Position numbers and translations under genes: made by a program | The notes under the pieces: model-generated | Told to the model about the DNA's origin: nothing | Seen by the model: the letters and a program-made list of their open reading frames with translations, nothing else | Database searches by the model: none | Source of the DNA: Gammaproteobacteria bacterium | GTDB taxonomy: Bacteria; Pseudomonadota; Gammaproteobacteria; PS1; Pseudothioglobaceae | NCBI GenBank assembly: GCA_030739975.1 | Contig: JASLYC010000019.1 | Span: 1 to 34,257 of the forward strand | Direction of reading: 5' to 3' | Length of the DNA stretch: 34,257 nucleotides | In this document: one piece after another, positions 3,945-30,701 of the stretch | How positions within the stretch are numbered: the stretch's first letter is position 1 | Layout: every line of letters starts with the position of its first letter

Positions 3945-5168
3945 ATGGAGCTTGAAATATACCAAAATATGCTTCTAATGGTGCTTTTAACAGCTTTTAT
4001 TATGGGGTGGGTGGTGTCAAAAACTGATTTCTGTACTATGGGTGCAGTTTCAGATTGGGTTAATATGGGGTCAACCTTGAGGCTAAGATCTTGGTCTCTG
4101 GCTATTTTAATTGCAATGCTATTTACTACTATTTTGAATTACTTTGGTTTAATTGATATGTCTTTAACCCAAAACAATGAAACCTCAAACCCTCCATACA
4201 ATACTCCAGTATTTGCCTGGCTACGTTATGTTTTAGGTGGATTTATTTTTGGTATTGGAATGACTATTGGATCTGGCTGTGGAAACAAAACATTTGTCCG
4301 TATAGGTGGTGGAAATTTAAAATCAATAGTTATTATGATAACCATGTCTATTGGAGCCTATCTAATGATTTTTACAAATTTTGGATACAATGTATTTTTA
4401 CAATGGACTGGAGTATTTGATGTGGATTTAACAAATTTAGACATAAATAGTCAAGACCTCGGGACATTAAGCGCTGCTATTTTGCCAACCGACGCATACA
4501 ACAATAAGATTATTCTTGGTTTATTAATATCAATTACAGGGCTCTGGTTTTTGTTTAGTAAAAAAGACTTCAGGTCTGATAAACACATCATAACAAGCGG
4601 CATTGTAATAGGGGTATGCGTTTCAATTGTTTGGTATTTAACTGCCGGCAGTATGGGGCAAGAACTTTTAGAGGAAGCAGAAATGATTGATGATGTACCT
4701 TTTGGGCTTGGAGCCCAGTCCCTAACTTTTACCTCCCCATATGCACATTTAGTGCAATTAATTAACACTAATTTTGATTTAGTTTATCTAACTTTTCCTT
4801 TAGCGGGTGGAACTGGAGTATTGCTTGGCTCATTTGCTTACTCAATTATTAATCGATCTTTTCGTATAGAATGGTTTAACTCTATAGCAGATTTTATTAA
4901 TCATCTTTTGAGTGGTTTTTTGATGGGTATTGGGGGTGTTCTGGCGATGGGTTGCACTGTAGGGCAAGGAATAACAGGTGTTTCTACTTTATCTTTGGGT
5001 TCTTTTATTGCACTAGGCTCAATTATTTTTGGTTCAGCGCTTACAATGAAAATAAGGTACTATAAATTAGTTTATGAAAAAGAAGCAAATATTTTTACCG
5101 CAATAATGGCAAGTTTAGCAGATATGAAAGTAATTCCAAACAGATGGAGACATTTAGATCATGTCTAA
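3945..5168 (+). CDS. YeeE/YedE-family sulfur-compound transporter
   Basis: This is a 407-residue multi-pass membrane protein with about ten hydrophobic segments. It has the duplicated YeeE/YedE (Sulf_transp) pattern: FCTMGAVSDW (Cys30), GSGCGNKTFVR (Cys112) and GCTVGQGITGVSTLS (Cys337). In the characterised family member, conserved cysteines along the pore pass thiosulfate through the membrane, and these three sit in matching motifs. The likely role is thiosulfate or related sulfur uptake, which suits a genome with soxB; substrate assignment is inference. The ATG at 3945 has AAGGAG 6 nt upstream and TATAAT at 3909-3914. Its stop overlaps the kdsD start by 8 nt, so the two are probably translationally coupled. 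Confidence 0.85.
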   Translation: MELEIYQNMLLMVLLTAFIMGWVVSKTDFCTMGAVSDWVNMGSTLRLRSWSLAILIAMLFTTILNYFGLIDMSLTQNNETSNPPYNTPVFAWLRYVLGGFIFGIGMTIGSGCGNKTFVRIGGGNLKSIVIMITMSIGAYLMIFTNFGYNVFLQWTGVFDVDLTNLDINSQDLGTLSAAILPTDAYNNKIILGLLISITGLWFLFSKKDFRSDKHIITSGIVIGVCVSIVWYLTAGSMGQELLEEAEMIDDVPFGLGAQSLTFTSPYAHLVQLINTNFDLVYLTFPLAGGTGVLLGSFAYSIINRSFRIEWFNSIADFINHLLSGFLMGIGGVLAMGCTVGQGITGVSTLSLGSFIALGSIIFGSALTMKIRYYKLVYEKEANIFTAIMASLADMKVIPNRWRHLDHV

Positions 5169-7300: not shown

Positions 7301-9190
7301 CTAAATCAAATCGCCAGAATAGTTTTCAATTCCTGGATTTTCTTTTACGCCTTTAATAGTTGGATGGTTTACTTTAGTTAGATTGAGGTGTTTCTGTTTA
7401 CGTAAATAATCTGCAGCTACATCCCACATCAGTCGACCATTACCTATAGAGCTGACCTGAGCCCAACCAGCTACCTTGTATAGCTTGTTTGGATCTACTG
7501 GAGTTCCGTCATCATCCTTGATATTGCTAATACGCTCACCTAAAGATGCTGCAGGGTCAATAGTGTAATCTAGTCCGCCCATGCGAACCATGTCTCCACC
7601 AGATTGCAAGTAGGGATCCTGTACAAACAAGTTCTCAGCAATACCTTCAAGAATGTCTCTTATTTGAGAGCCTGCCATCTCACTAACGTTAGTTTCTCCA
7701 TAAGTCATAGATGTATTAGTCATCAAATCCTCCATTGTGACTTTGTGCCCAGCTATAACGGAAGTTCCCCATCGAACACCAGCTGACATAGCAAAATCAG
7801 CATTATGCTCTTCACGCAATGAATTAACTAACACTTGATCCCAGGTTCCCATAAAGTTTCCACGACGATAAAGTGTCTGTTCAGTTGTACATAATTCTTC
7901 AGACAAAATTTCGTTATAAGTTTTGCCGACCCTATTTGGATTATTTGACATTGTAGAGCTTCGAGCTTCAACAACATTTTCATCGTACTTAGTGCTACGC
8001 ATCTTATTAATATAAGAAACCATCTCTGCATCTGGTTTTATCAGATTGGTAATTATTGGCAACATTTTGTAGTTGTATCCTGAAACTTTGTGGTCTCTAA
8101 TATCTAAATCCATAACGCCAATATATTTTCCAGAACATCCGGCATTTGTTACTACGGTATATCCGCCAGCATTCTTTACTTCGATTGGCTTAGGCATGCC
8201 ATCATGCGTATGACCTCCAAATATCGCATCAATTCCAATTACTCGTGAAGCCATTTTTAGATCTACGTCCATGCCATTGTGTGAAACAACTATTACAGCA
8301 TCAGGGTTTTCATTCTCACGAATATCCTCCACAAGCTCACTCATTTCATCTTCGCGCAGACCAAAAGACCAGTCTGGAAAGAAGTATTTTTGCGGGTTAG
8401 CGTTAGATGTTCTAGGAAAAGCTTGGCCTATAACAGCAATCCTGTGGCCTCCTACATTTTTTATTACATATGGCTTAAATGGTATGCCCTCATCTTCATC
8501 AAACAAACCTCGTCCGTCATACTTTTCAGTCATAGAAATATATTCATCTTCCATAAGTGCGTCTTCTAATATTCTTACATTCTGACCTAAAAAGTCGCCC
8601 TTAAAAAAACCAATATTTTTTAATACTTCATTCTCTTTATAAGTAAACTCCCAATGACCTACCATAACATCAACGCCTAAAATATTACAGGCCTCTACCA
8701 TATCTGCGCCCCTTGTCCAGAGTGATGTTCCGGAGCCTTGCCAGGTGTCTCCTCCATCCAAGGTTAATGTATTTTGCCTACCTCCAGCAGACTCACGTAA
8801 TGACTCTAGGACGCTTTTTATTTGTCCGAAACCTCCTGTTTTTCCGTACTTAATAGCAAGTTCCTCAAAATTATTATATGTAAATGCGTACGCTTCAGCA
8901 GAACCGGGCTTCACTCCTATTTCTTTCAACAAGTTGTTACCGACAACATGAGGCAACTTACCAAATGTTTCTCCAAAACCTAGATTTACGTTTGGCTCAC
9001 GAAAATAATTTGGCAATAGGTTGCCGTGAACATCGGTTATATGTAGTATACGTGCGCTGCCTGTTTTAGGCATTTCGTACATGTTTTCTTGACCAAACAG
9101 ACTGGTTTTGTTAGCATATCCGGTACCTATTAAACCTGCAGCCGAACCCGCACCCAAAATTTTAACAAACTCTCTGCGTGTTAATGACAT
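7301..9190 (-). CDS. soxB: Thiosulfohydrolase SoxB
   Basis: SoxB is the periplasmic dimanganese enzyme that hydrolyses sulfate from the cysteine-bound sulfur intermediate on SoxYZ during thiosulfate oxidation. The 629-residue protein begins with a twin-arginine signal (LTRREFVK, then a small hydrophobic stretch to about residue 26). Metallophosphoesterase motifs follow in order: DVHGN (Asp53, His55), GGDTW (Asp147), the SoxB-type GHWEFTY (His179), SHNGMD (His304) and GGHTHDG (His327, His329). The C-terminal 5'-nucleotidase domain is complete. The start has AAGGAG 4-5 nt upstream. No other sox gene is in the window, so soxB stands apart from the carrier and cytochrome genes. It is divergent from murE. 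Confidence 0.95.
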   Translation of the reverse strand: MSLTRREFVKILGAGSAAGLIGTGYANKTSLFGQENMYEMPKTGSARILHITDVHGNLLPNYFREPNVNLGFGETFGKLPHVVGNNLLKEIGVKPGSAEAYAFTYNNFEELAIKYGKTGGFGQIKSVLESLRESAGGRQNTLTLDGGDTWQGSGTSLWTRGADMVEACNILGVDVMVGHWEFTYKENEVLKNIGFFKGDFLGQNVRILEDALMEDEYISMTEKYDGRGLFDEDEGIPFKPYVIKNVGGHRIAVIGQAFPRTSNANPQKYFFPDWSFGLREDEMSELVEDIRENENPDAVIVVSHNGMDVDLKMASRVIGIDAIFGGHTHDGMPKPIEVKNAGGYTVVTNAGCSGKYIGVMDLDIRDHKVSGYNYKMLPIITNLIKPDAEMVSYINKMRSTKYDENVVEARSSTMSNNPNRVGKTYNEILSEELCTTEQTLYRRGNFMGTWDQVLVNSLREEHNADFAMSAGVRWGTSVIAGHKVTMEDLMTNTSMTYGETNVSEMAGSQIRDILEGIAENLFVQDPYLQSGGDMVRMGGLDYTIDPAASLGERISNIKDDDGTPVDPNKLYKVAGWAQVSSIGNGRLMWDVAADYLRKQKHLNLTKVNHPTIKGVKENPGIENYSGDLI

Positions 9191-22000: not shown

Positions 22001-22941
22001 TTTCCAAAAACCTTTGGCTTGGTATAACTGTCAATAAGAGGTACGGCAATATTAATAAGCAACACTGCGAAAGCAACCCCATCTGGATAGCCACCAAACA
22101 CCCTAATAATTACCACCAACATACCAATAAGAAATCCATAAATCAATCTACCTTTAGGTGTAGTGCTTGAAGAGACTGGGTCAGTTGCAATAAAAAATGC
22201 TCCTAACATTGACGCACCCAACATTAAATGAAGTTGTGGTGGTAGGTATATATTATCGTCAATCAAGAATAATAGCCCAGCAGTTGCAAATATACCAAGA
22301 ATAAAAGCTGTCGGGATTTGCCAATAAATTATTTTTCTAATCAATAGGTACAATCCACCAACCAGAAAGCCTGCATTAATCCAAGATTGACTCAATGAAT
22401 AAATATCTAAATTTTCAATATGAGTGCCTAAAGATATTTGCATTTTGACCTCATCAAGCTTAGTGGCGCCAGTAAGAATATCAACAGAAGATATATTAAA
22501 AATTGCATTAATACTTTGCTCTATATTTACATAATCACTGCCCCAGGTTGTCATCTGAAGTGGATACGAAATCAATAAAAAGGCATACCCCAGCATTGCC
22601 GGATTAAAAGGGTTATTGCCTAGCCCACCGTATATCTGTTTACCAAAAATAATTGCGAAAGTCACCCCGACAACTATAATCCACCATGGGGCCATAGTTG
22701 GAATGGATATCGCTAATAATATTGCTGTCAATATAGCTGAGCCATCAGCTATGGTAGGCTTAACTGGTAGTCCTCTAAAACTTAAAAATACTGACTCAGA
22801 AACCAAAGCCGTTACGATACCCAGCACTATTTGTATCAATACACCCCAACCAAAAAAATAAAAAGAAGCACCCACACCTAAACCAAGTGCGTAGATCACT
22901 TGTCTCATAACTTGACTAGTATTTAGTTCGCCACTATTCAT
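21997..22941 (-). CDS. rnfD: Rnf complex subunit D (membrane, covalent FMN)
   Basis: RnfD is a membrane subunit carrying a covalently bound FMN. The 314-residue protein has about eight to ten hydrophobic helices, GLGNNPFNPAMLGYA, and the flavinylation motif DILTGATKL (Thr160). The conserved TDPVSS and GYPDGVAFAVLL blocks are present. It is shorter than E. coli RnfD (352), mainly at the N-terminus and in loops. The start ATGAATAG overlaps rnfC by 8 nt. Confidence 0.95.
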   Translation of the reverse strand: MNSGELNTSQVMRQVIYALGLGVGASFYFFGWGVLIQIVLGIVTALVSESVFLSFRGLPVKPTIADGSAILTAILLAISIPTMAPWWIIVVGVTFAIIFGKQIYGGLGNNPFNPAMLGYAFLLISYPLQMTTWGSDYVNIEQSINAIFNISSVDILTGATKLDEVKMQISLGTHIENLDIYSLSQSWINAGFLVGGLYLLIRKIIYWQIPTAFILGIFATAGLLFLIDDNIYLPPQLHLMLGASMLGAFFIATDPVSSSTTPKGRLIYGFLIGMLVVIIRVFGGYPDGVAFAVLLINIAVPLIDSYTKPKVFGK

Positions 22942-24439
22942 TTATTTTATTTTTTTTATTTGTGTTTACTCGTTCCATTGCTTTGGTTATTTTATCTTTC
23001 TGCGACTTTTCTTTTGCCATTTTCTCTTTAATTGCCTTCTTCTTAGCTTCCATCATTTGTGCGCGTTCAGTTTTGTTTCGCTCTAGTCGAAACTCTCTGT
23101 ACTCAAACCTTTCTCTAGCAATATTGGCTTTCCTTTTTTCTTCTGATGTATTTCTATGTAGAGCTTTGGCAAAAGAGAAATATTCGACTAAAGGTATATT
23201 GCTAGGACAAACATAAGAGCAGCAAGCACACTCAATACAATCAAAAAGACTATACTCAACAGCCTTATCTGTCTTTTCACTCTTAGAATACCAGTAAAGC
23301 TGCTGAGGCAACAAGCCAACTGGACATGCCTGATTACATGAACCGCAACGTATGCATTCTCTAGCAGTATCCTTAGCTACACGGTTATTGATAAAAATAC
23401 AATTACAAGTTTTGCTTATTGGAACATCAGTACTAGGAACATCAATTCCCATCATCATCCCTCCCATACGAACATCGTGCTTAAGTTTGTTAGGGCTGGA
23501 TAAAGAGACAATATCCTCAAAAGATGAGCCCAATCTGGCTTCATAATTATAAGGCTTAGATACTCCACTACCTGTAACTGTTACAATCCTAGAAACTAGC
23601 GGTTTGCCTTCAATAATAATATCAAATATAGCCTTTACAGTTGCCACATTTAAACAAACAATACCGACATCTATAGCAAAATCTCCAGAAGGTATCTCTT
23701 TATCAAGTATGGTCTTGGTGAGTAATTTTTCAGATCCAGAAGTATACTTAGTCGGCACATGAGCAATGCTAATTCGGTCATTATTGTTATTTATTAGTAA
23801 GGAATTATAGGCATCAGGTTTGTCATTTTCAATCGCAATGATTGCTCTCTCTGCACCACAAATATGTAGCAAAATTTCAACTCCTTTTATAACTTGGCTG
23901 GGATAGTTTTGCATCAAAGCATCGTCACACATTATTCCTGGCTCACACTCAGTTCCATTAACTATTATTGTGCTACAGTTTTGCGATAATCCCAACTTAA
24001 TGTGTGTGGGGAAACCAGCCCCACCCATTCCCACAATGCCTGCATAGTGAATTTTCTCAATCAGCAAAGATTGTGGATATTTCCAATAATCTTTTGTCGA
24101 ATTTTCATCTTTTACCCACTCATCTTTGCCATCAGACTGAATAGTAATGCACTGAGTTTTAAAGCCAGATTTATGAGGAATGAGATGATCATCTATTGCT
24201 GTAACTTGGCCAGAAACAGTTGCATGTATTGGTACAGAATTAAAGTCATCATTACTAGCAATAACCTGTCCTGTCAATACAAGATCTCCTACCTTGACGC
24301 ATGGGGTAGCCTTTTCTGTCATTCTTTCATTGAGCGGCAAGATTACTTTGTTTGGAAGTGTTGTTTTTTTTATTCCAACATCATCAATCGGGTATGGGTT
24401 AGAGATAAAAACACCACCTTTGTATAAATCACTATACAT
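22934..24439 (-). CDS. rnfC: Rnf complex subunit C (NADH/flavin/Fe-S)
   Basis: RnfC binds NADH and FMN and relays electrons through two [4Fe-4S] clusters. I start at the ATG at 24439 (501 residues, [11 protein letters not shown]), which overlaps rnfB by 8 nt; upstream in-frame codons lie inside rnfB and are not family-like. [12 protein letters not shown] is the flavin/NADH-binding signature. Cluster motifs are C362-x2-C365-x2-C368-x3-C372 and C401-x2-C404-x2-C407-x3-C411. The last 70 or so residues are a highly charged Lys/Glu/Arg-rich segment, likely a coiled coil, as in other gammaproteobacterial RnfC but shorter. Confidence 0.95.
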
Positions 24440-24974
24440 TTGCAACCTCAGTAATATCTGGAACAAAGTTACGCATTGTTGGTATAACTTCAACCATATC
24501 AATACAATCAACTGGACAGACAGGGATACATAAGTCACACCCTGTACATTCATCAGCAATCACTGTAGTCATAACTTTGCTTGAACCAACAAAAGCATCT
24601 ACAGGGCATGCCTGTATACAAAGTGTACAGCCTATACATATCTTTTCATCGACAACAGCAACACGCTTGGGCTTTGTTTCGCCATGTTCGTCATTAAGAT
24701 TCATTGTCTCTATATCCAATAGCTCTGCTAGAGCATCCACCCCTTCTTGACCTCCAGGGGGGCATTGATTTATTTTCGCCTCACCTTTTGCTATAGCTTC
24801 AGCATATGGTCTACAACCAGGATAATCACATTGGCCACACTGTGTTTGTGGGAGTATTGCGTCAATCTGATCAACTAGTGGGTTACCCTCTATTTTAAAT
24901 TTAATAGCTGCATAGCCTAATATAAGCCCCAACAATAAAGCTAGAGACGAGAAAAGAAAGATTGAGTCAAACAC
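24432..24974 (-). CDS. rnfB: Rnf complex subunit B (ferredoxin-type)
   Basis: RnfB is the membrane-anchored ferredoxin-like subunit that exchanges electrons with soluble ferredoxin. The 180-residue protein has one N-terminal helix (about 5-25) and a 4Fe-4S domain with C46, C49, C54 and C71 (CGQCDYPGC). Two C-x2-C-x2-C-x3-C clusters follow (C113-C123, C143-C153). It starts 3 nt downstream of rnfA and overlaps rnfC by 8 nt. Confidence 0.96.
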
Positions 24975-25778: not shown

Positions 25779-26048
25779 TTATACTTGGCTAAGCTCTAAG
25801 TCCTTATTAGCAACTGCACTTAAATATACAAATGACGGACCAATACAGTATTTCCTATCCATTCTGCGTGAGATATAACCAAAATCGATAAGAGTTTGTA
25901 AATTTCTATATGTTGTTGTTATATTGAAATTAGTTTTTTCACTTATCTCATCTAAAGACATACTTGAATTTTCCGTAGAAAAACAAGAAAGTATATATAA
26001 GCACTTCTCTATTGAATTATATTTTTTATTCATTTCGTTTATTGACAT
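25779..26048 (-). CDS. Miniature IclR-type winged-helix regulator (DNA-binding domain only)
   Basis: This is an 89-residue protein that matches only the N-terminal winged helix of IclR regulators. NSIEKCLYILSCF forms helix 1; SLDEISEKTNFNITTTYRNLQTL is helix-turn-helix plus recognition helix (about residues 34-56); GYISRRMDRKYCIGPSF is the wing. It ends with the linker-helix start (DLELSQV), exactly where the roughly 170-residue effector-binding domain should begin. The stop is clean and no effector-domain remnant follows. It could be a working stand-alone repressor or a decaying IclR gene. Operator-like palindromes and a strong promoter just upstream favour function. It lies between the cys operon and rnf, on the same strand. 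Confidence 0.72.
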   Translation of the reverse strand: MSINEMNKKYNSIEKCLYILSCFSTENSSMSLDEISEKTNFNITTTYRNLQTLIDFGYISRRMDRKYCIGPSFVYLSAVANKDLELSQV

Positions 26049-26264: not shown

Positions 26265-27011
26265 TTAAATATTGGCCTCTACAGATATTTGTTCTAGACT
26301 ATTTTTTTGTCGCTTCAAAGGTCGAGTATGTATGCCGCACTCACCTCCGCACTTGCTAGAACCAACCCATCTACCACTACGTTCATCGCCAGTTGATATA
26401 GCAGTACAAGGTGTACACCCTAAAGACCTGTAGCCATCTCTGTATAATTCATTAACCTTTACACTGTTCATTGCTAGATATTGCCAGATCTCTCTCTCTT
26501 CCCAGATTAATATAGGGTTTAGCTTTGTCAGGCCTGTATCTCTTAACTCAATTTCTCGATAATCTGTTCTTGTTCTGCCTTCAGTACAACGAAGTCCGGT
26601 AACCCAGCATTCAGATTGGAAATGCTCTAATGCTTCTCTAGTAGGTTCAACCTTAAATATTTCACAACACCCATCTGGATCGGTCTTATAAAGATTATCG
26701 ACCTTACTGTCGCTTTGAAAAATTTTAGTTTCAGGGTAACGGTCCACAAAATATTGCATATATTGTTTCGTTTCTTTTGGCTTGTATGGTGTAGTTACAA
26801 TAAAACCTTTAATATCGGAAGAGACTTGTTTTGCTAAATCCCAAACAACACAAGAATCCTTACCTAGACTGTTTGCAACTATCAAGTTGTCTCCATATTC
26901 ATTATATGCATCATTTATTAAATCCAAAGAGCGCTCAATTTTTTGATTCAATGTCAACCCATTGACTAGTTTAAATACGTCTTCACTTGTAGTTATATTT
27001 TGTTCTTTCAT
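26265..27011 (-). CDS. cysH: Assimilatory adenylyl-sulfate (APS) reductase
   Basis: CysH reduces activated sulfate to sulfite with thioredoxin. The 248-residue protein has the PP-loop-like NSLGKDSC (48-54). It has the pairs Cys115-Cys116 (DGCCEIFKVEP) and Cys199-x2-Cys202 (GCTPC), the four cysteines that bind a [4Fe-4S] cluster and mark APS rather than PAPS reductases. The catalytic Cys225 is in ECGIH. The AAAGGA site lies just before the ATG at 27011. It is the last gene of cysI-DUF934-DUF2061-cysH. Use of APS means no APS kinase is required; this is inferred from the cysteines. Confidence 0.94.
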   Translation of the reverse strand: MKEQNITTSEDVFKLVNGLTLNQKIERSLDLINDAYNEYGDNLIVANSLGKDSCVVWDLAKQVSSDIKGFIVTTPYKPKETKQYMQYFVDRYPETKIFQSDSKVDNLYKTDPDGCCEIFKVEPTREALEHFQSECWVTGLRCTEGRTRTDYREIELRDTGLTKLNPILIWEEREIWQYLAMNSVKVNELYRDGYRSLGCTPCTAISTGDERSGRWVGSSKCGGECGIHTRPLKRQKNSLEQISVEANI

Positions 27012-27063: not shown

Positions 27064-27282
27064 TCAGGTCTCCGCCTTCGCAGTCCTACCAAATGAAACA
27101 CGGTTCCACACTCTTTCATGTCCATAATACAAAAACATCTTTGTAAACACTTCTATACCTGCAATGGCACCTGCCCATGTCAATTTACCTGTAATATACC
27201 AAGATATTATAAAAGTATCCGTAGTTGCAATTACCCTCCAAGAGGTTGTCTTTAATGCTGTTCTGTATGATTTCTCAAACAT
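27064..27282 (-). CDS. DUF2061 small membrane protein in the sulfur assimilation operon
   Basis: This is a 72-residue protein with two hydrophobic helices (about 15-31 and 36-54) and the DUF2061 pattern: KTTSWRVIATTDTFIISWYITG, then AGIEVFTKMFLYYGHERVW. Conserved polar residues inside the membrane (Arg, Asp, Glu, Lys, His) suggest a helical hairpin with a functional or partner-binding face. No activity is known to me for this family. It sits 6 nt after DUF934 and 52 nt before cysH within the cys operon, so a role in sulfite/sulfate assimilation is a reasonable guess. Confidence 0.83.
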   Translation of the reverse strand: MFEKSYRTALKTTSWRVIATTDTFIISWYITGKLTWAGAIAGIEVFTKMFLYYGHERVWNRVSFGRTAKAET

Positions 27283-27288
27283 AATTAT

Positions 27289-27708
27289 TTACCCAAATTT
27301 GTGTTGTTCAATTAGTCCAGAGTTATTCTCTGCAGCCTGATAACATATACTGAAGTCTATCGCATAGTCTTCGTTGTATTGCTTGTACTCTGGCAATAAT
27401 TCATAAGAATCAATGCCTGACCTGAAGATAAATTGCAAATGATCAATATGAACGTTAAGGGCTCGTATTTCTCCTTGATAGCCTAACCTTTTCTTTAGTA
27501 ATTTAACTTGAGAATAACTTCTGCCGTCATCGAAGTTGTTAAAATCAAATGCAACCAATGGAGCCTGTTTAAGTGTTACAAACAGAGACTCGACGTCGTC
27601 AGTTGGGCGGACAAGAATGCCATTAGTTTCATTTGAATCTCCACTTTTTTCTATGAGCCATTGTTCGATATGTAGTAATTTATATGTCTTCTCTTTGCTA
27701 TTAAGCAT
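27289..27708 (-). CDS. DUF934 protein associated with sulfite reductase
   Basis: This is a 139-residue protein of the DUF934 family, nearly always encoded between cysI and cysH in proteobacteria and suspected of assisting sulfite reduction. Recognisable blocks are GILVRPTDDVESL, VAFDFNNFDDGRSYSQVKLLKKRLGYQGEIRA and DHLQFIFRSGID. No cofactor motif is visible. The start is the ATG at 27708, decided by a perfect AGGAGG 6 nt upstream; it overlaps the cysI stop by 8 nt (ATGCTTAA). An in-frame ATG ten codons earlier lies inside cysI and has no such site. Confidence 0.88.
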   Translation of the reverse strand: MLNSKEKTYKLLHIEQWLIEKSGDSNETNGILVRPTDDVESLFVTLKQAPLVAFDFNNFDDGRSYSQVKLLKKRLGYQGEIRALNVHIDHLQFIFRSGIDSYELLPEYKQYNEDYAIDFSICYQAAENNSGLIEQHKFG

Positions 27709-29338
27709 ACACAGCCTCCTTAAATAATTTGATTCCAATTCTATTAAATAATTGATTAAAGTTTTCGCCTTGTTGTTTATTATTTACGTAAACATTAACT
27801 ATCTTCTCTACTGCATCTACAACATCGACAGATGCAATAGCTCTACCCAATTTCTTACCTAACTTGGTGTCATTTTTTGTTCTGCCTCCTAAGGTAATTT
27901 GGTAGTAGTCTTCTTTTCCCTTATTCAGTCCTAATAAACCAATATCAGCTACGTGATGATGTGCACATGAATTTTCACAGCCTGATATGTGGAGATTCAG
28001 CTCTCCAATCTCGAACAATAGTCCGTTCTCTATAAACCTATTCTGAATTCTTTTAGATACTGGTATCGAGACAGCTTTTGCCAATGAACAATAGTCCGCC
28101 CCAGGGCAAGAAACAATATGGGCGAATGTTGAATTATGTGGACTAGACAAATCAAACATCTCTAACTGTTGCCATAACTCATACAGATCCTCGTTTCTTA
28201 CATATGGAAAAACTATGTCCTGATTTTTTGTTGTTCTGACCTCATTAAGGCTATATTTTGATGCCAGAGCTGACAAATGTCTTAATTGGTCAGAATCTAT
28301 ATTTCCTGGAGCAGAACCAATTTGAGTTAGAGAAACAGAAACTATAGAGTAGCCCTTAACCTTATTGTCAGATACATTGTTGCTTTTCCAGATAGTGTAA
28401 TTAAAGTCAACCCTTTGTTCTATATTTTTACTTGTGATTGGCTTTATTGGCGCTATAAAATCTTTTTTAATTTTGTCTAGTTTAGATATGTTTAACTTAA
28501 TCTCATCATCATCTCTTGACGATAACCAGTCTTTTTCAACTAAATCGTGAAATTTTTCTATGCCTAACCTTTTTACTAGGAACTTTATCCTTAACCTTTT
28601 GTCATTATCTCTCTTGCCGTAAAGGTTATATACCCGTAAAACTGATTCTATATAACTCAATATATCTATTTCTGGAACGAAAGACTTTATTTTTGGGGCA
28701 AGCATAGGCGCTGCCCCTAGGCCACCACCAGCATATACACTAAACCCTAGCTCGTGCTTATCGTTAAGAACCAATTGAAGCCCTAAATCATTGAACTGTA
28801 TGCCAATCTCGTCATTCTCTGAGCCATTTATTGCAATTTTGAATTTCCCTGGGAGCCAAGAAAACTCAGGGTGTAGAGTGAACCATTGCCTGATTAATTC
28901 GCAATATGGTCTTGCATCAGCCACCTCATCCTTTCTTATGCCAGATAGAGGATCAGCAGAGATATTTCTAACTGTCTTGCCGCTACTCTGTATTGCGTGC
29001 ATATTGACCTTTGCAAGGTCTGCTATTATTGAATTTATCTGTGATAAATCTATCCAATTAAACTGTATATTTTGTCTGGTTGTGAAATGACCATATCCCC
29101 TATCATATTTATCAGCTATAAGACCCAATTGATTTAATTGCTTAGAATTTAATGAGCCATACGGTATAAGCACTCGCAACATATATGCATGTAACTCCTG
29201 ATATAGTCCGTTCCTTAATCTGATGCTTCTAAATTGATCATCGCTTAGCTCATTATCAAAATATCTTGTTACTTGTTTTTTGAATTGATTATGCCTCTGA
29301 TCTATAAATTTAGTGTCATTGTCATGGTATTTATACAT
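27701..29338 (-). CDS. cysI: Sulfite reductase hemoprotein (siroheme/4Fe-4S), nitrite/sulfite reductase family
   Basis: This is a 545-residue siroheme enzyme expected to reduce sulfite to sulfide with six electrons. Two half-domains each begin with the ferredoxin-like segment; YGHFTTRQNIQF marks the first. Cluster and siroheme ligands are C411-x5-C417 (CPGADYC) and C454-x3-C458 (GCENSC). Nitrite reduction cannot be excluded from sequence alone, but DUF934, cysH and the absence of nitrate genes favour sulfite. No CysJ flavoprotein is seen, so ferredoxin is a likely donor. The start has no ribosome-binding site and a weak -10 (TATAAA about 16 nt upstream), consistent with an activator-dependent promoter in the Lrp-box region. 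Confidence 0.9.
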   Translation of the reverse strand: MYKYHDNDTKFIDQRHNQFKKQVTRYFDNELSDDQFRSIRLRNGLYQELHAYMLRVLIPYGSLNSKQLNQLGLIADKYDRGYGHFTTRQNIQFNWIDLSQINSIIADLAKVNMHAIQSSGKTVRNISADPLSGIRKDEVADARPYCELIRQWFTLHPEFSWLPGKFKIAINGSENDEIGIQFNDLGLQLVLNDKHELGFSVYAGGGLGAAPMLAPKIKSFVPEIDILSYIESVLRVYNLYGKRDNDKRLRIKFLVKRLGIEKFHDLVEKDWLSSRDDDEIKLNISKLDKIKKDFIAPIKPITSKNIEQRVDFNYTIWKSNNVSDNKVKGYSIVSVSLTQIGSAPGNIDSDQLRHLSALASKYSLNEVRTTKNQDIVFPYVRNEDLYELWQQLEMFDLSSPHNSTFAHIVSCPGADYCSLAKAVSIPVSKRIQNRFIENGLLFEIGELNLHISGCENSCAHHHVADIGLLGLNKGKEDYYQITLGGRTKNDTKLGKKLGRAIASVDVVDAVEKIVNVYVNNKQQGENFNQLFNRIGIKLFKEAVYA

Positions 29339-29479: not shown

Positions 29480-29494
29480 CAGAATATTATTATG
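29480..29494. promoter_or_regulatory. Second Lrp-type box, over the regulator's start codon
   Basis: CAGAATATTATTATG matches 14 of 15 positions of YAGHAWATTWTDCTR. Its centre is 31 bp from that of the first box, close to three DNA turns, as expected for wrapping by an Lrp-type oligomer. It overlaps the ATG at 29492, suggesting autorepression. Confidence 0.55.
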
Positions 29495-29959
29495 GACAAA
29501 TTAGACAGAATCATACTGGACCTGCTGCAAAAAAATTCAGACTTAACCATTCAAGAAATTTCTAAATCTGTGTATCTCTCAACTACTCCTTGCTGGCAAA
29601 GAATTAAAAGACTAAAGGAGCGTGGTTTTATTCAAAAAACTGTAGCTATTCTCGACCCTAAAATGGCTGAATTAAATACTACAGTATTTGTGTTTGTCAC
29701 TATTGAGAATCATGATAAAGATAAACTAGAATTATTCTCAAGAGTGGTATCAATGATGCCAGAAATAGTGGAATGCCATAGGCTAAGTGGCTCTATTGAC
29801 TACCTCTTAAAAGTAATAATTAAAGATATTGAGGGCTATGACTTGTTTTACAAGGGATTAATAACAAAGGTCTCGTTTCTAAATGTTACATCTAACTTTG
29901 TAATAGAGAGAATGAAGCAGACAACTGAAATTCCAATAAATGTTGATTTAGATAAATAG
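29492..29959 (+). CDS. Lrp/AsnC-family transcriptional regulator
   Basis: This is a 155-residue regulator. Residues 1-60 form the AsnC-type helix-turn-helix (KLDRIILDLLQKNSDLTIQEIS, TTPCWQRIKRLKERGFI). Residues 65-145 form the RAM effector domain (TVFVFVTIENH, VECHRLSGSIDYLLKVIIKDIEGYD). Lrp/AsnC proteins form dimers to octamers, wrap DNA and sense amino acids. The divergent position next to cysI and two Lrp-type boxes in the shared 153-nt region suggest control of sulfur assimilation, perhaps in response to cysteine or methionine; the effector is inference. It ends 7 nt from the convergent TSUP gene. Confidence 0.92.
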   Translation: MDKLDRIILDLLQKNSDLTIQEISKSVYLSTTPCWQRIKRLKERGFIQKTVAILDPKMAELNTTVFVFVTIENHDKDKLELFSRVVSMMPEIVECHRLSGSIDYLLKVIIKDIEGYDLFYKGLITKVSFLNVTSNFVIERMKQTTEIPINVDLDK

Positions 29960-29966
29960 ATATTTC

Positions 29967-30701
29967 TTAAGCGAGCACCTTAAACATACCAAAAGAGCTT
30001 ATACATAGTAAAGCTCCGCCTACCCATTTTTTAAATAACTGGTCATTATTGATAATCTTTTGATGGGTAAAAATACCTAATACATGCCCTATAGCTGCAA
30101 CAGGTATTAAGTACAATGAGAATTGCCAATCTATACTAACCCCAACAACAACAAATGCAGTCATCTTAATTCCAACTAAAATAATCCACAGAACGAACAT
30201 CGTATTTCTTAGCATTGATTTATCTACAAAACGCATATAGACTGCAACTATCAAAGGTGCTCCTGTCAATGATGTTCCTGAAATATACCCTCCAATAACA
30301 AGAAATACCTTATCAAGCCAGGATTTGTTTGAACTTATTTTTTTATCTAAAATCCAATTAATTGCATAAAAAATTGTTACGCAATAAATAAAAATAACTA
30401 TAACTTTTGTTGGCAAGTTAAGAAGCCCAATAACTCCAATAAGTGTTGGTGGAATAATCCAAACTAGTGTCCTTTTTAGGTATCCCCAGTCAACACTATC
30501 AAGGGAACTAAAAAGAGTAAGCGAGGTAAAGAAAAACAGATGCATACCAATAATGGGCAGCCAATATACTGGTGAGCCGCCTATCAACAACAATAATGGT
30601 AACCCCAGAGCTGCCCCGCCAAAACCCAAGCCAGTCCTAACAAAACCGGTCCATACAAAGATTAGTCCAATTAAAATTAGGCTTGAATTATCAAAACTCA
30701 T
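29967..30701 (-). CDS. TSUP (TauE/SafE) family membrane transporter
   Basis: This is a 244-residue inner-membrane protein with about seven to eight hydrophobic helices and the paired family motifs: GFVRTGLGFGGAALGLPLLLL near the N-terminus and GYISGTSLTGAPLIVAVYM in the middle. TSUP proteins export sulfite, sulfoacetate or other anions. In this sulfur-rich setting, export of sulfite is a plausible guess, not shown. It starts 12 nt after glmM on the same strand, so it is likely carried on the ftsH-folP-glmM transcript. There is no ribosome-binding site before the ATG. Confidence 0.85.
   Translation of the reverse strand: MSFDNSSLILIGLIFVWTGFVRTGLGFGGAALGLPLLLLIGGSPVYWLPIIGMHLFFFTSLTLFSSLDSVDWGYLKRTLVWIIPPTLIGVIGLLNLPTKVIVIFIYCVTIFYAINWILDKKISSNKSWLDKVFLVIGGYISGTSLTGAPLIVAVYMRFVDKSMLRNTMFVLWIILVGIKMTAFVVVGVSIDWQFSLYLIPVAAIGHVLGIFTHQKIINNDQLFKKWVGGALLCISSFGMFKVLA

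Follow-up and report, generated by a model that had tools for sequence, protein, structure and literature searches.

Sulfate assimilation after uptake is, in the textbook view, a soluble pathway. In the bifunctional CysN-CysC enzymes of sulfate activation (NF004035), which we take to be NodQ-like, CysN carries an extra C-terminal domain, an APS kinase. The transporters TauE/SafE (PF01925) and CysTWA, which in orthologous Bacteroidota operons hold the same slot as members of the DUF2061 family (PF09834), are many-helix or multi-subunit systems, whereas the DUF2061 protein described here matches that family alone in a Pfam scan (E ≤ 0.001; no TauE, SulP, SLC13 or CysTWA match). Corynebacterium glutamicum CysZ, too, is encoded in an assimilatory sulfate operon, cysIXHDNYZ; it is a membrane protein, and in the available text of PMC1266029 it is needed for growth on sulphate and sulphite and is proposed, with a deletion phenotype, to be a high-affinity sulphate transporter; it has 309 residues, in contrast to the 72 of our protein, whose role is predicted.

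Pfam assigns DUF2061 no function. In the literature outside subscription papers we found no mention of COG3205 and, in the portions of text available, no report that connects DUF2061 with sulfate assimilation; mentions of DUF2061 concern other subjects. The accessible parts of PMC12442407 and PMC3751524, on iron and Fur control in Shewanella and Caulobacter, list Shewanella SO_4740 with a Fur-binding motif and report that Caulobacter CC_0155 is up 13-fold under iron limitation and 6-fold in a fur mutant, the available part of PMC12632274 links PA3237 to polymyxin resistance, and one DUF2061 mutation appears in partially accessible text on spectinomycin-selected Neisseria lactamica. We find DUF2061 beside, and sometimes fused to, sulfate-activating and sulfate-reducing enzymes in several phyla, and so it probably belongs to sulfate assimilation as a membrane part that has been overlooked. 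Such a recurrent, sometimes fused, small membrane-type partner would mean that many bacteria organise sulfate activation at the membrane, and would give a DUF family a testable function.

The DUF2061 gene in the window and in the Thioglobus family

The window, the whole 34,257-nucleotide stretch of DNA analysed here, comes from a 1.5-Mb draft genome (completeness 87%) of an organism in the same family as Candidatus Thioglobus, and holds a minus-strand operon in the order cysI-DUF934-DUF2061-cysH. The first gene (27701..29338) encodes, by profile match, a cysI-type sulfite reductase haemoprotein (NIR_SIR) that scores below every NCBIfam equivalog cut-off; it is followed by a DUF934 ORF (PF06073; 27289..27738), the DUF2061 ORF (27064..27282, ATG start) and, 52 nt downstream of the latter, a cysH-type (phospho)adenylylsulfate reductase (26265..27011; PF01507, with NF002537 above cut-off). 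ORF coordinates and Pfam matches confirm the first-pass annotation, which had placed a DUF2061 ORF 6 nt behind DUF934 in this operon, and the ORF is the sole PF09834 match in the draft genome. An Lrp/AsnC-type ORF (29492..29959, plus strand) is divergent from cysI and, judged by its position, possibly regulates the cys operon, and a TauE/SafE membrane protein (29967..30701, minus strand; Pfam match) is the operon's upstream neighbour.

Elsewhere in the window, soxB (7301-9190; TIGR04486, above cut-off) and a TsuA/YeeE-like transporter (3945-5168; score below cut-off) are consistent with a sulfur oxidiser. Rnf electron-transport genes (22934-24974; rnfC and rnfB models above cut-off) lie near the cys operon on the same strand, and between them and cysH is an 89-residue ORF (25779-26048) whose sole Pfam match above cut-off is an IclR helix-turn-helix and which may be a truncated regulator.

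Among 57 related genomes, DUF2061 was found in 9, DUF934 in 14 and PF01507 in 33, the last count including weak matches. Seven of the 36 genomes of the window's own family contain DUF2061, six of them in the order cysI-DUF934-DUF2061, and in the five besides the window's the gap between DUF934 and DUF2061 is 2-24 nt. As cysH directly follows DUF2061 in just four of these six genomes, the triplet is the constant part. One family genome (G004) has DUF2061 without DUF934 and four (G013, G020, G034 and G035) have DUF934 without DUF2061; the order cysI-DUF934-cysH was seen in L128, there with cysDN added.

The DUF2061 protein scores 79.8 bits against PF09834 (cut-off 23.1) over positions 2-52 of 52. 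Its dN/dS is 0.13-0.19 against four of five relatives (dS was saturated in the fifth comparison), coding-sequence values that indicate purifying selection, and conservation in relatives together with these ratios ruled out a chance ORF. The two-helix protein of the first-pass annotation is also what AlphaFold2 predicts, with helices at 5-31 and 34-61 (mean pLDDT 80.6), and a natural tandem DUF2061 protein (L279) gives a four-helix model predicted with confidence (pLDDT 90.8, pTM 0.76). Membrane location of the window protein is weakly predicted, its helices being poorly hydrophobic: over 17 residues, the Kyte-Doolittle mean reaches at best 0.53 in one helix and 1.11 in the other, against family means of 1.29 and 1.46 by the same measure (94 sequences). 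Averaged over 94 sequences, the N-end has a net charge of +3.3, the loop of +0.2 and the C-end of +1.8; this pattern of positive ends and a nearly neutral loop fits a topology in which the two ends are cytoplasmic, and agrees with the fusions to cytosolic enzymes at either end.

In a motif-selected set of 98 non-redundant sequences, K11, T23, E44, K48, Y52, H55, E56, R57 and W59 are 79-97% conserved; the 100% conservation of R16 and part of that of W15 follow from the motif used for the choice. Polar or charged residues are conserved inside the helices: D22 in 71%, T23 in 87%, E44 in 79% and K48 in 87%. The 72 residues include no cysteine, and the protein is thus without the residues for a ferredoxin-like (CysX-type) Fe-S cluster. 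Kinship to a known fold or solved relative could not be read from the searches: the best sequence match of DUF2061 to PDB chains has E 0.92, the tandem model of L279 has no Foldseek match at E ≤ 0.001, and the best VIA-align Z is 6.4.

Linkage to sulfate assimilation across phyla

Genomes were sampled phylum by phylum, without regard to their similarity to the window, and a locus was called linked when cysI, DUF934, cysH, cysD, cysN or cysC, recognised by profiles built from sequences gathered in the analysis, lay within 1.5 kb, the distances being recounted from the DUF2061 domain itself. DUF2061 was found in 91 of 398 Pseudomonadota genomes (G000 included), 28 of 247 Bacteroidota, 9 of 101 Campylobacterota and 16 of 194 Verrucomicrobiota. 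Linked loci number 20 of 28 in Bacteroidota (one locus without a recovered domain being scored as a miss), 10 of 10 in Campylobacterota, 12 of 16 in Verrucomicrobiota and 3 of 95 in Pseudomonadota, the window's own locus left out, and all of them have a cys gene on the same strand as DUF2061. Chance linkage was assumed by us to be ~1% per locus, and the binomial and Fisher figures ignore relatedness. The association of DUF2061 with sulfur genes that the first-pass annotation had put forward is real, wider than the window and strong in Bacteroidota, Campylobacterota and Verrucomicrobiota, with fusions to CysN and CysC among its forms; in Pseudomonadota, the window's own phylum, it is rare. Moreover, a strong PF01507 match (E < 1e-20) is present in 25 of the 28 Bacteroidota genomes with DUF2061 versus 116 of 219 others (Fisher p 0.0002). 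In the genome collection, 45 of the 80 closest contigs are linked; Pelagibacteraceae account for 22 of the 35 unlinked ones, and in four of the others sulfate ABC genes stand immediately upstream of DUF2061.

The sequences fall into types. Most linked copies belong to type 1, whose first helix carries [S/T]-W-R and whose second carries T-K...Y-x-H-E-R-x-W; the window copy is of this SWR type, distinct from type 2, which has S-F-A and E-P-x-x-N. Most Pseudomonadota copies are type 2 or other forms: by a rough motif rule, type 2 is the commonest among the Pseudomonadota loci drawn (55 of 95, plus L128), type 1 accounts for 13 loci, two of them linked, and type 2 and other forms account for 82, of which the one linked locus is a CysN fusion (L128). 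We consider it very likely that type 1 DUF2061 is a member of the sulfate-assimilation pathway, a membership that is well supported outside Pseudomonadota and in the window's family. A third type (S/T-Y-R ... GFMIVSNIYT ... HERxW) was seen in L287-L290 and L131, with no cys gene within 1.5 kb.

A single dominant neighbour for the whole family was sought and rejected, as Pfam scans of the Pseudomonadota loci and relatives show no dominant family. These scans took 80 of 87 upstream and 84 of 86 downstream neighbours (the rest overlapped DUF2061 or were dropped, and the row for L134 was replaced by its DUF934 ORF), and the sulfur matches among the 25 families listed are DUF934 in 5 of 80 upstream and PAPS_reduct in 3 of 84 downstream. 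Another oxyanion transporter neighbour, with Na_Pi_cotrans and PhoU matches, was found at 4 of the 80 upstream positions, that of L102 included; L102, L107, L109 and L114, from one alphaproteobacterial genus, carry a type 1 DUF2061 16-132 nt behind an ORF of 554-563 residues.

Gene orders around DUF2061 vary. Besides the cysI-DUF934-DUF2061-cysH of the Thioglobus family, we found Rrf2-[cysK]-DUF2061-cysH-cysD-cysN-cysI in Bacteroidota and Campylobacterota, cysJ-cysI-DUF2061 in Carboxylicivirga, cysI-cysH-cysC-DUF2061 in L118 and L221, and cysI lying 7-78 nt before DUF2061 in L145, L146 and L186. The Campylobacterota loci L292, L293 and L301 have the run 422/423 aa-137 aa-cysK-cysH-cysD-cysN-cysI, in which, DUF2061 aside, no gene is flagged with two or more membrane segments. 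Half of the Verrucomicrobiota loci (8 of 16) read cysN-DUF2061 with 26-62 nt between the genes, and on Verrucomicrobia contigs L154, L178 and L202 the order is cysTW-cysA-DUF2061; L199 has cysA and a piece of cysTW, and CysA is directly upstream of DUF2061 in all four.

Other contexts carry sulfate-activation genes with no reductase labelled in the stretches. L281 and L282 read DUF2061-cysD-cysN, and a Nod-factor operon on a Mesorhizobium plasmid reads sulfotransferase-DUF2061-cysD-cysN behind nodC-nodI; on a Bradyrhizobium plasmid no cys gene is annotated within 5 kb of DUF2061 (two of ten plasmid records were examined). L297-L300, L279 and L280, which we read as polysaccharide clusters, have a second or separate cysC and, except in L299, cysD and cysN; their other neighbours, labelled by eye, are CysQ, a sulfotransferase and a flippase, and they too have no labelled reductase. 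The common factor of the gene contexts is therefore sulfate entry and activation, not sulfite reduction, and it is at that membrane step that we place the function.

Fusions point to the same enzymes. CysN is fused to DUF2061 in two genomes (G240 and G067), so that CysN again carries an extra C-terminal domain, but a two-helix hairpin instead of the APS kinase of CysN-CysC enzymes. The G240 protein (538 residues) consists of GTP_EFTU, eEF1A_C and then DUF2061 at 472-522; in that of G067, CysN is above the TIGR02034 cut-off and DUF2061 scores 25 bits (cut-off 23.1). DUF2061 is fused to APS kinase in six genomes: a Deltaproteobacteria MAG (L219; DUF2061 at 15-65, APS_kinase at 77-222), one Bacteroidota (L283) and four Campylobacterota (L297-L300). 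The fusion in L298 is above the apsK cut-off, and the Walker A motif is kept in the APS-kinase fusions, although around it the four Campylobacterota domains differ from stand-alone kinases. Large apparent fusions in L042, L058, L106 and L111 have no partner domain in Pfam and are probably over-long ORFs.

Phage and Pelagibacteraceae copies

Viral contigs yielded at least 555 relatives, of which 80 were kept (L339-L418). In 38 of these 80, an APS-kinase-like gene lies within 150 nt of DUF2061 on the same strand (28 of the 69 contigs with a recovered DUF2061 ORF and 10 of the 11 others). The phage proteins match Pfam APS_kinase over about half of the model, with a weak cytidylyltransferase-like part in L412 and L373; that of L404 (4125-5186) corresponds to PHROG 10255 'kinase', and in L370 (892-1931) DUF2061 lies between a 142-residue APS-kinase-like ORF and an ORF matching PHROG 10255 positions 124-228. 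The annotated phage collection gave one DUF2061 match, with no cys gene named nearby. The pair of DUF2061 and a putative APS-kinase-like enzyme is possibly an unannotated sulfur-related auxiliary module; with DUF2061 as a partner in sulfate assimilation, the set of phage-borne sulfur genes would grow by one that is so far unannotated.

A FastTree tree puts the window copy and L142 inside the phage sequences (support 0.82-0.91), and a mixture-model tree puts them with bacterial copies; a single clade of the six Thioglobus-family rows was not rejected by the AU test (p 0.28). Given the disagreement between the two trees, we do not claim transfer of DUF2061 from phage to the window.

Among the 22 Pelagibacteraceae (SAR11) genomes with DUF2061 (drafts of 0.7-1.2 Mb that may be incomplete), none has a true CysH/CysD match, and 14 have just weak 27-32-bit matches in ORFs of 522-530 residues, so that genomes lacking the pathway can still carry a type 1 copy. 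At their 22 DUF2061 loci, which fall between L164 and L218, the scanned neighbours include his genes, HIT and HpcH. Four of these copies cluster with phage copies in a 59-row tree of few columns and low resolution, and the Pelagibacteraceae copies may thus serve another role.

Sulfate entry, tethering and other possible roles

In orthologous Bacteroidota operons DUF2061 changes places with transporters. L265 and L266 read Rrf2-[DUF2061]-cysH-cysD-cysN-cysI and L313 and L314 read Rrf2-[TauE]-cysH-cysD-cysN-cysI, and the operons are orthologous since CysD of L313/L314 is 84.6-86.6% identical to that of L265, L266 and L277. CysTWA precedes cysH-cysD-cysN in L312, in the place held by DUF2061 in L269 (CysD 80.9% identical), and in L321 the orthologous slot is empty, with neither DUF2061 nor a transporter. 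The 20 linked Bacteroidota loci were compared with 20 Bacteroidota cysH/cysD loci without DUF2061, hand-picked as high-scoring PF01507 matches and about half of them cysD without cysH. TauE, SLC13-like or CysTW was found in the stretch at none of the 20 DUF2061 loci versus 12 of the 20 controls (six TauE, five SLC13-like and one CysTW; Fisher p 4.5e-5, relatedness ignored, with stretches mostly of 16 kb and some short). The eight controls that also have no such transporter include two on contigs of 3.6 and 6.0 kb and two without a labelled cys gene.

This exchange points to a function in common close to the step of sulfate entry, without proving transport. Genome-wide, SulP is matched in 33 of the 35 genomes with DUF2061 and in 19 of the 20 controls, and SLC13 in 30 of 35 and 10 of 20, weak matches included in each case. 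As each of the 35 DUF2061 genomes has a SulP and/or SLC13 match, DUF2061 need not be the sulfate permease, and the idea that it is its host's only one finds no support. TauE and DUF2061 co-occur in the window's family, TauE lying in the window neighbourhood itself, which argues against strict exclusion.

The reading we prefer, with a probability of roughly 0.45 for the mechanism as a whole, is that type 1 DUF2061 would be a small protein devoted to sulfate assimilation, sited at the cytoplasmic membrane and acting at the step of sulfate entry and activation. Each chain would form a helical hairpin with both ends cytoplasmic, and two hairpins may pack into one unit of four helices, an arrangement suggested by the natural tandem copies. 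Conserved residues on a polar face, T23, E44, K48 and Y52 in the helices and K11 and HER-W at the cytoplasmic ends, would touch the oxyanion and/or a partner. DUF2061 would act as a permease or channel subunit, or as the partner of one, and would pass sulfate to a membrane-held ATP sulfurylase, APS kinase or APS/PAPS reductase, covalent fusion being the form this takes in some species. An old question, the coupling of the energetically poor ATP sulfurylase step to sulfate entry, would thereby become testable. The entry reading is helped by the transporter count (0 of 20 versus 12 of 20), whereas the linkage of only 2 of the 13 type 1 loci in Pseudomonadota weighs against it. Against the preferred explanation also stand the Pelagibacteraceae copies without the pathway, the SulP/SLC13 transporters encoded in the same genomes, the weakly hydrophobic helices, the iron/Fur regulation in two organisms, TauE beside the window operon, the transporter-free controls and the empty slot of L321.

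The first-pass annotation had offered membrane docking of the reductases, sulfite or sulfate handling, or electron delivery. Sulfate handling is supported as a direction, at activation or entry, and so is docking as such. That the reductases are what is docked is not favoured, because both the fusions and the reductase-free contexts point to activation or entry. Docking alone, with no substrate carried, is a possible though somewhat doubtful account: DUF2061 would keep the enzymes that activate sulfate or use (P)APS at the inner membrane, next to a separate permease or to sulfotransferase or polysaccharide machinery bound there. Such a tether is favoured by the fusions, which join a cytoplasmic end to either of two distinct cytosolic enzymes, by the polysaccharide loci, by the APS-kinase-like phage gene beside DUF2061 and by SulP and/or SLC13 in the same genomes; however, a mere anchor would hardly need conserved D22, T23, E44 and K48 in its helices, and the transporter exclusion in Bacteroidota operons is left unexplained.

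A bolder form of the entry reading strikes us as unlikely, if worth stating. Type 1 DUF2061 would here be a novel, minimal class of oxyanion permease or channel, its ~70-residue hairpins forming a sulfate-conducting unit that replaces TauE, SLC13-like or sulfate ABC transporters; fused forms would feed ATP sulfurylase or APS kinase directly, and phages would keep it next to an APS-kinase-like enzyme so as to divert the sulfate of their hosts.

Less probable still is a membrane or stress protein of general function, under iron/Fur control in some lineages and repeatedly recruited to cys operons for the iron-rich sulfite reductase or its by-products, which would not be a sulfate component as such. 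The Fur-binding motif of SO_4740 and the induction of CC_0155 by iron limitation and in a fur mutant, both from partially available sources, agree with it, as do the 92 of 95 Pseudomonadota loci unlinked to cys genes, but most Pseudomonadota copies are of other sequence types (SO_4740 and CC_0155 were not typed), several contexts have no sulfite reductase within the stretch examined, and the fusion partners are sulfate-activating enzymes. Electron delivery to sulfite reductase, or its docking at the membrane, is very improbable despite the position of DUF2061 after cysI-DUF934 in six of seven window-family genomes and close behind cysI in L145, L146 and L186, because the window protein has neither cysteine nor any other domain, loci without cysI nearby exist, and the fusions go to CysN and CysC.

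At L308 (8390-10000), a single ORF adjoining cysH combines a TauE/SafE transporter with the sirohaem-synthase domains NAD_binding_7 and Sirohm_synth_M.
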